From: Deltaproteobacteria bacterium
GTDB lineage: Bacteria > Bdellovibrionota_F > JAHFAK01
Reading direction: 5' to 3'
Assembly: GCA_023250585.1 (NCBI GenBank)
Contig: JAHFAK010000101.1
Location: 1 to 8,797 of the forward strand
Length of the DNA stretch: 8,797 nucleotides
The notes below the pieces were generated by a model. That model worked only from the letters and a program-made list of their open reading frames with translations, did not search any database and was not told where the DNA came from. Positions 2,520-7,312 of the stretch are shown piece after piece; the first letter of the stretch is position 1; each line of letters starts with the position of its first letter. The position numbers and the translations under genes are program-made.

Positions 2520-2541
2520 AAACCTATCAACAGATAGGTTT
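2520..2541. repeat. Hairpin with a perfect 9-bp stem
   Basis: AAACCTATC and GATAGGTTT are perfect reverse complements separated by AACA. No T-run follows on either strand, so it is not a standard intrinsic terminator. Its right arm is part of the 13-base sequence repeated at 2879. Confidence 0.5.
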
Positions 2542-2544
2542 AAC
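2532..2544 (+). repeat. Left copy of a 13-base direct repeat
   Basis: AGATAGGTTTAAC occurs here and again at 2879-2891 in the same orientation. The copies bracket the palindrome/GIY-YIG unit, so they may be a target-site duplication. This left copy also overlaps a hairpin arm, so another origin is possible. Confidence 0.5.
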
Positions 2545-2580
2545 TCCCCTTAGCCCAGTTTTCAAGAGGACCACTCAGGT

Positions 2581-2611
2581 CGTCATCCCGCGGCTTGACC
2601 GCGGGATCCAG
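2581..2611 (+). repeat. GC-rich palindromic repeat, left copy
   Basis: ATCCCGCGG (2585-2593) and CCGCGGGAT (2599-2607) form a perfect 9-bp stem around CTTGA. The whole block is the reverse complement of 2811-2843 apart from a two-base difference in the loop. Its flanks (TCAT before, CCAG after) match those of the palindrome at 3836, so it belongs to a dispersed family. Confidence 0.85.
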
Positions 2612-2789
2612 GGAGTTCAACAGTGGGATGCTCTTCAAAGTACACCAGTTTATTACTATCGTATCTTGAGGTGAAGGAATCAGCTGCTTTATTCTTGTCT
2701 TCTCAGATTCTTTTGGGAAGATCCGATGTACCACCAATATATAAGGTACTCTTGCTCGTGAGAATATACACAAAAAAATTCTTCTCCAT
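2612..2789 (-). pseudogene. GIY-YIG endonuclease remnant
   Basis: Minus-strand translation from the ATG at 2789 gives a GIY-YIG domain start: F-F-V-Y-I-L, then L-Y-I-G-G-T-S-D-L and K-R-I, which hold the two motif halves and the usual Arg. A TGA stop follows at 2705-2703, where the family normally has Trp in a W-E-H-K context. Reading on in the same frame gives E-D-K-N-K-A-A-D-S-F-T-S-R-Y and K-L-V-Y-F-E-E-H, clear family continuation, so the catalytic-region His is also lost (H to D). At about 2612 the homology stops and the palindrome begins, removing the C-terminal part with the metal-binding Glu. The gene is therefore dead in three ways: an in-frame stop, a lost active-site residue and truncation. 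Family recognition is from conserved motifs, not from a search. Confidence 0.75.
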
Positions 2790-2810
2790 AACTTAGTATT
2801 ACTATGATTA

Positions 2811-2843
2811 CTGGATCCCGCGGTCACAAGCCGCGGGATGACG
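2811..2843 (-). repeat. GC-rich palindromic repeat, right inverted copy
   Basis: ATCCCGCGG (2815-2823) and CCGCGGGAT (2831-2839) form a 9-bp stem around a 7-base loop. It is the inverted partner of 2581-2611 with two extra bases in the loop. It lies 21 bases upstream of the start codon of the GIY-YIG remnant. Confidence 0.85.
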
Positions 2844-2878
2844 ATCAAGAAGATTATAATCTAAACTGCAGGAAAGTG

Positions 2879-2891
2879 AGATAGGTTTAAC
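2879..2891 (+). repeat. Right copy of a 13-base direct repeat
   Basis: AGATAGGTTTAAC, identical to 2532-2544. It closes the palindrome/GIY-YIG unit and lies three bases upstream of the -35 candidate of the tRNA promoter. Confidence 0.5.
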
Positions 2892-2930: not shown

Positions 2931-3004
2931 CGGGGCGTGGCCCAGCCTGGTAGGGCACTTGCATGGGGTGTAAGTGGTCGCTGGTTCAAATCCAGTCGCC
3001 CCGA
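2931..3004 (+). tRNA. tRNA-Pro, anticodon GGG
   Basis: A complete cloverleaf can be drawn. The acceptor stem CGGGGCG (2931-2937) pairs with CGCCCCG (2997-3003), with discriminator A3004. The D stem is GCCC/GGGC, with GG in the loop. The anticodon stem is CTTGC/GTAAG with one G-T pair, and the loop ATGGGGT places GGG at 2965-2967. The variable loop has five bases. The T stem is GCTGG/CCAGT (one G-T pair) with loop TTCAAAT. The C1-G72 pair is typical of bacterial tRNA-Pro. No CCA follows the discriminator, so CCA must be added by a nucleotidyltransferase. GGG reads CCC and CCU codons. I see no clear terminator in the 170 bases after it. Confidence 0.96.
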
Positions 3005-3768: not shown

Positions 3769-3854
3769 ATGGAGCCCCACGGCTAAAGCCCATAAGCGCT
3801 AACTTGATGATAGTGAAAGTTAATTCTCCAAATCTGTCATTCCCGCGAAGGCGG
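3769..3854 (+). repeat. 86-base repeat, left copy (inverted partner at 7227-7312)
   Basis: This block matches the reverse complement of 7227-7312 at 84 of 86 positions. It holds several short self-complementary parts: AGCC-CCAC-GGCT, GGCT-AA-AGCC, AGCGCT, AACTT/AAGTT and GGAG/CTCC. It therefore likely folds as RNA or single-stranded DNA. It starts 22 bases after the stop of the nucleotidyltransferase gene, and the right copy starts two bases after the stop of the peptidase gene in the same orientation relative to that gene. Confidence 0.93.
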
Positions 3855-3862
3855 GGATCCAG
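3836..3862 (+). repeat. GC-rich palindrome fused to the 86-base repeat
   Basis: CCCGC (3842-3846) pairs with GCGGG (3851-3855) around GAAG, extended outwards by three more pairs including one T-G. Its layout, TCAT then CCCGCG and finally CGGGGATCCAG, matches the palindromes at 2581 and 2811 except for the loop. The right copy of the 86-base repeat carries only its first arm. Confidence 0.75.
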
Positions 3863-7226: not shown

Positions 7227-7312
7227 CCACCTTCGCGGGGATGACAGATTTGGAGAATTAACTTTCACTATCATCAAGTTAGCGCTTATGGGCTTTAGCC
7301 GTGGGGCTCCAT
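7227..7312 (-). repeat. 86-base repeat, right inverted copy
   Basis: Reverse complement of 3769-3854 with two mismatches. It starts directly after the peptidase stop codon (7314-7316) in the direction of transcription. Its far end keeps only the first arm of the attached GC-rich palindrome, so it is partly degraded. It lies 84 bases upstream of the kinase-like gene start and causes the misleading N-terminal extension of that frame. Confidence 0.93.

Follow-up and report, generated by a model that had tools for sequence, protein, structure and literature searches.

The window, an 8,797-nt stretch of contig JAHFAK010000101.1 from a Deltaproteobacteria bacterium, carries at 2532-2891 a decayed gene for a GIY-YIG nuclease, enclosed by a pair of inverted palindromes (Table 1), an arrangement that the first-pass annotation had described from the sequence and that was confirmed. 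The gene remnant matched PF01541 (Pfam) with an E value of 2.3e-7 over 2619-2777 on the minus strand, with one TGA in the match and a score of 32-34 bits, above the cut-off of 22.6. Over 2616-2789 it aligned at 41% identity with the intact GIY-YIG protein of the same genome (residues 1-60), and about 35 residues at the C-terminus were missing. The palindromes (2581-2611 and 2811-2843) were inverted copies of each other, with arms of 18 and 16 nt that were 100% complementary, and the left one folded as a hairpin with its tag and tail unpaired (-11.9 kcal/mol, z -4.5).

Table 1. Features of the nuclease locus and of the neighbouring lone palindrome (REP, repetitive extragenic palindrome; TIR, terminal inverted repeat)
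Feature	Position	Strand	Basis
Left target-site duplication ATAGGTTTAA, 10 bp	2534-2543	no strand	identical to 2881-2890, abuts TIR
Left TIR of carrier element, CTCCCCTTAGCCCAGTTT	2544-2561	+	3 mismatches to CTCACCTTACCGCAGTTT, which bounds other copies
Left CGTC-type REP, CGTC-ATCCCGCGG-CTTGA-CCGCGGGAT-CCAG, tag outward	2581-2611	+	inverted-copy match, genome copy search, hairpin fold
Pseudogene of a GIY-YIG nuclease with an in-frame TGA and a deletion of about 35 residues at the C-terminus	2616-2789	-	PF01541; match to intact GIY-YIG at C96
Right inverted CGTC-type REP, CTGG-ATCCCGCGG-TCACAAG-CCGCGGGAT-GACG, tag outward, loop longer by 2 bases	2811-2843	-	inverted copy of left REP
Right TIR, AAACTGCAGGAAAGTGAG	2863-2880	-	3 mismatches to CTCACCTTACCGCAGTTT
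Right target-site duplication ATAGGTTTAA	2881-2890	no strand	identical to 2534-2543
Lone CGTC-type REP of a different class, TGTC-ATTCCCGC-GAAG-GCGGGGAT-CCAG	3835-3862	+	33 copies in own genome

CGTC-tagged REPs have been described from five phyla, include Neisseria dRS3 and Rickettsia RPE-4 and RPE-6, and were judged to "apparently lack a dedicated transposase", their origin being left open (Di Nocera et al. 2013; PMC3733652). They share with the palindromes of the window a CGTC or TGTC tag, an 8-9 bp stem whose first bases are AT, a loop of 4-5 nt, a CCA tail and an occurrence as inverted dimers. The left palindrome shows all of the structural features (CGTC, 9-bp stem, 5-nt loop, CCAG), and the right one has a 7-nt loop. 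Unlike in the REPs of that survey, a GIY-YIG gene lies between the hairpins here, and the arrangement extends over about 20 phyla.

Like CGTC REPs, the palindromes have many copies in their genome, often as inverted dimers. Three classes were found: the window class with 75 copies (allowing up to 3 mismatches), the class of the palindrome at 3836 with 33, and a GTCATTGCGAGCG..GAAGCAATC class with 21; reversed controls gave 0 in every case, so that the 75 copies, whose collection the first-pass annotation had proposed, are not due to chance. Most copies of the second and third classes formed pairs of hairpins spaced about 13-22 nt apart, with the tags pointing outward; in the 3836 class, many copies stood in gene-less dimers of this orientation, separated by about 16-18 nt. 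Only one small GIY-YIG gene of the type is intact in this genome (C96, 95 aa), and the hairpins on its two sides belong to the third class and face outward (GTC-ATTGCGA).

We then considered the repeats that bracket the module. The first-pass annotation had reported a 13-base direct repeat, which is real (2532-2544 and 2879-2891) and consists of a 10-bp duplication plus 3 chance bases overlapping the TIR edges; an origin from the nuclease is not supported for this copy, and the repeat derives from a TIR-type transposon that carries the dead module. A genome-wide search for the TIR sequence CTCACCTTACCGCAGTTT gave 13 hits, with 0 in the reversed control; in the window it flanks the module on either side (3 mismatches each), and it does the same in C35 and C42. 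Target duplications lay directly outside the TIRs in the window (ATAGGTTTAA, 10 bp), in C42 (GATAATATG, 9 bp) and in C133 (GCAACAAAAG, 10 bp); the C35 copy had none. These TIRs and flanking duplications indicate that a TIR element is the vehicle of the module and that it duplicates 9-10 bp of its target. Like miniature inverted-repeat transposable elements (MITEs) and other TIR transposons, this element has TIRs, target duplications, several copies and no transposase of its own; unlike them, its cargo is a nuclease-REP module. C21, C35 and C42 have the GIY-YIG truncation of the window copy in common, and therefore it was the dead form itself that multiplied, presumably with a transposase of outside origin; no autonomous transposon with the TIRs of the window element turned up in this genome. 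In the 105-bp version at C133, one symmetric hairpin (GTC-ATTCCG..CGGAAT-GAC) replaces both palindromes and the gene. A gammaproteobacterium (G192) also had a truncated GIY-YIG gene with palindromes, in three nearly identical copies (L265, L266 and L267), inside a TIR element starting TAGGGCG that is unrelated to that of the window; this indicates that MITE capture happened more than once. As a separate observation, a second MITE-like element (element B), about 150 bp long and with GTAAYAGCTCAGTWAATGGG at its ends, was seen at L012, L022, L027 and about 20 further loci of the window's genome; it has duplications of 8-9 bp and carries two window-class palindromes with tags inward.

The gene-between-hairpins arrangement was studied across the family with a profile (A1) built from 11 homologues; the scan of genome contigs gave 80 named loci in about 20 phyla, these being the best-scoring homologues, and more distant members may show different rates. 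A hairpin was counted when GTC was followed by a perfectly paired stem (5 bp or longer) with a 3-30 nt loop, no more than 200 bp from the gene. This tag-and-stem test was used instead of the longest inverted repeat by local alignment, which discriminated weakly (direct REP repeats were equally common). An outward hairpin was present upstream of 58/79 genes, downstream of 70/79 and on both sides of 54/79, compared with 8.3% per strand for random 200-bp stretches and 12/740 (1.6%) for neighbouring open reading frames with outward hairpins on both sides. This bears out the expectation of the first-pass annotation that intact genes lie between inverted palindromes above chance. GTC was the tag 166 times against a median of 27 across the 64 trinucleotides, with the hairpin consensus YGTC-AT..AT-CY. 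The nearest hairpin pointed outward rather than inward at 50:8 upstream and 57:11 downstream, at a median distance of 21-27 bp from the gene, and 12/175 scored hairpins were symmetric. Whole-genome searches gave both-side hairpins at 16/27 loci in Gammaproteobacteria and 25/28 in Bradyrhizobium, many of the latter being one orthologous site. Taken together, these results show a well supported association of gene and hairpins across phyla.

Profile A1 also matched the UPF0213 structures 1zg2 (5.3e-9) and 1ywl (1.1e-5), and the nuclease resembles these and the prokaryotic Slx1-like GIY-YIG proteins (PMC1564403) in being a stand-alone GIY-YIG domain of about 95 aa. In contrast, weaker-scoring UPF0213-like GIY-YIG genes in the gammaproteobacterial sample had both-side hairpins in 0/20 cases.

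The two hairpins of one locus were alike, agreeing at 7.59 of 9 stem bases, while shuffled pairs gave a mean of 5.51 and a maximum of 6.07. When five hairpin classes were placed on the nuclease tree (93 rows), 13 changes were counted, compared with 46 in shuffles (shuffle minimum 40). For the 58 rows with an assigned phylum there were 12 class changes, compared with 20.5 for shuffles within phyla, and 0/300 shuffles were that low; phylum itself changes 33 times on this 58-row tree. The tree is a quick tree of a short protein with weak single branches, and the count of changes carries the weight. Overall, hairpin class tracks the nuclease tree rather than the host phylum.

Sites with and without the gene were found in two settings. 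In Sphingobium, L160 and L162 have one symmetric GTC-hp-GAC (hp, hairpin) where L075, L164 and L165 have GTC-hp-gene-hp-GAC, and C133 stands in the same relation to C21, C35 and C42. Both insertion into a hairpin and collapse of inverted hairpins fit these pairs. In Azospirillum lipoferum (L068, 2001-2294), a GIY-YIG gene lies between sufB and sufC with REP pairs on either side and is missing from three relatives; this was rejected as a clean empty site because about 60 bp differ and the gene lies between two REP pairs. Rhizobium CIAT894 was also examined and gave no usable empty site. A gammaproteobacterial genome (G348; L254-L263) contained many truncated GIY-YIG units still bounded by GTCATTCCTGCGAAAGCAGGAATCC hairpins, partly inside larger repeats; because many of them lie at contig ends, the unit copies probably exceed the assembled number. 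Among 203 genomes, a dRS3-like REP was found in 28/44 Gammaproteobacteria with a strong nuclease hit and in 34/159 others (p 2.5e-7, a statistic that ignores relatedness). In Bradyrhizobium, with 1-7 GIY-YIG gene copies per genome, nearly all genomes have both REPs and nuclease, and the six without a nuclease were not poorer in REPs.

These results suggest the small GIY-YIG nuclease as the obvious candidate partner of CGTC REPs. We consider it likely that the locus of the window is a decayed nuclease-REP unit captured in a TIR transposon, and that intact units cut their cognate hairpins and spread through repair. On this reading, the unit consisted of a small gene for a GIY-YIG nuclease and, on its two sides, CGTC REP hairpins with outward tags; it was captured inside a MITE, a TIR transposon without its own transposase, which carried it to a site upstream of a tRNA-Pro gene and so produced the 10-bp target duplication. 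The tRNA-Pro (GGG) gene occupies 2931-3004 and begins 40 bp beyond the right duplication. In an intact unit, the nuclease may recognise CGTC hairpins of its own class, whose stem carries the GTC tag at its 5′ base; the hairpin would be in cruciform or single-stranded form, and the cut would fall at its base. GIY-YIG enzymes hydrolyse DNA, and strand joining is beyond them; therefore, spread would depend on host repair, which could copy the unit into a resident hairpin whose break ends match the donor's flanking hairpins (hairpin homing). The outcome would be the conversion of GTC-hp-GAC to GTC-hp-gene-hp-GAC, the empty/filled relation found twice. Spread would thus probably be homing-like, by hairpin cleavage and host repair, and not by transposition. 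That the nuclease itself spreads the palindromes is plausible. The broader proposition that small GIY-YIG nucleases are dedicated partners of CGTC REPs throughout bacteria, spreading themselves and the REPs by hairpin homing without a transposase, is put forward tentatively, at somewhat less than even chance.

Several observations weigh against spread by the nuclease. At 25 of the 79 named loci a hairpin was missing on one or both sides, cases of the kind that the first-pass annotation had named as contrary to its proposal, and the association is accordingly strong and not absolute. The nearest hairpins in Neisseria (L071) and Azospirillum (L068) face the opposite way or pair up on each side of the gene, and loss of the gene through collapse of inverted hairpins would explain the empty/filled pairs as well. 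Moreover, 12 gammaproteobacterial genomes hold at least 10 REP copies without a strong nuclease hit, and the six Bradyrhizobium genomes without a detected nuclease still hold 10-165, so that REPs can persist in a genome that has no nuclease of its own. This persistence would also fit GIY-YIG genes that are passengers landing in REP-rich intergenic spots, next to hairpins that are functionally unconnected and may be terminators or mRNA stabilisers, and CGTC REPs do often lie between genes or close to the 3′ ends of genes (PMC3733652). However, such an insertion-site bias predicts neither the mostly outward orientation on both sides, nor the likeness between the two hairpins of a locus, nor a hairpin class that follows the nuclease tree with phylum held fixed, and we regard it as improbable.

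It could also be argued that the window copy is merely a MITE whose GIY-YIG remnant and palindromes are accidental cargo, uninformative on any nuclease-palindrome system. Its TIRs, target duplications, common truncation and scattered copies agree with this, as do the two such palindromes in element B and the truncated GIY-YIG gene with palindromes in the unrelated G192 element. This account holds for the window copy, but capture presupposes a module, which is found intact elsewhere without these TIRs, and it is insufficient for the family-wide pattern; we give it very little weight. A further possibility is that the nuclease modulates genome defence or DNA uptake using REPs as marks, REP mobility being a by-product or the work of another enzyme, in line with the earlier view that CGTC REPs are moved by other transposases (PMC3733652). 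The activities reported for Ssn, the family member in Neisseria, would also fit this role. Against this, the gene-REP units act like dispersed multicopy elements, with 1-7 gene copies per Bradyrhizobium genome, amplified truncated units and empty sites, and we judge this explanation rather unlikely.

The first-pass annotation had likened the locus to REP/RAYT systems (RAYT, REP-associated tyrosine transposase; REPtron, REPIN). The likeness stands as regards the association across phyla, the hairpin class matched to the enzyme lineage, the gene between inverted tagged hairpins and the gene-less dimers elsewhere; it fails for the direct repeats of the window, which the nuclease did not make. The enzymes and tags also differ, the one here being a GIY-YIG hydrolytic nuclease (PF01541) with a GTC/CGTC tag, whereas RAYT is an HUH tyrosine transposase and the REP/RAYT tag is GTAG. 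A literature search on GIY-YIG with REPIN, RAYT or palindromic elements gave nothing linking GIY-YIG to CGTC REPs, the report on the Ssn family being outside its reach. The Ssn family of Chenal et al. (2025) reportedly comprises GIY-YIG site-specific single-stranded nucleases with thousands of homologues, and its Neisseria homologue is said to cut single-stranded DNA at a dRS3-type site and to affect transformation. If this is right, recognition is already known, and the new findings are the wider link to CGTC REPs, the build of the units, the match between hairpin class and nuclease, and the capture by MITEs. CGTC REPs are widespread in bacteria, and a consistent, class-matched link to one nuclease family makes this partnership directly testable. 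If the nuclease drives spread, REP-like dispersal would have evolved at least twice with unrelated enzymes, an HUH transposase and a GIY-YIG nuclease, the second time without a transposase.

The palindrome at 3836 had been taken for a non-autonomous, nuclease-free copy of the window element. It is related to the window palindromes in being a CGTC-type REP, and it belongs to another sequence class, so that it is not a copy of that element. It lies in a further repeat family carrying REPs: the stretches 3779-3858 and 7230-7312 are near-identical over about 80 bp in inverted orientation (ATGGAGCCCCACGGCTAAAGCCC...CTGTCATYCCCGCGAAGG), and both end in a CGTC-type hairpin, complete at 3835-3862 and broken near 7230.
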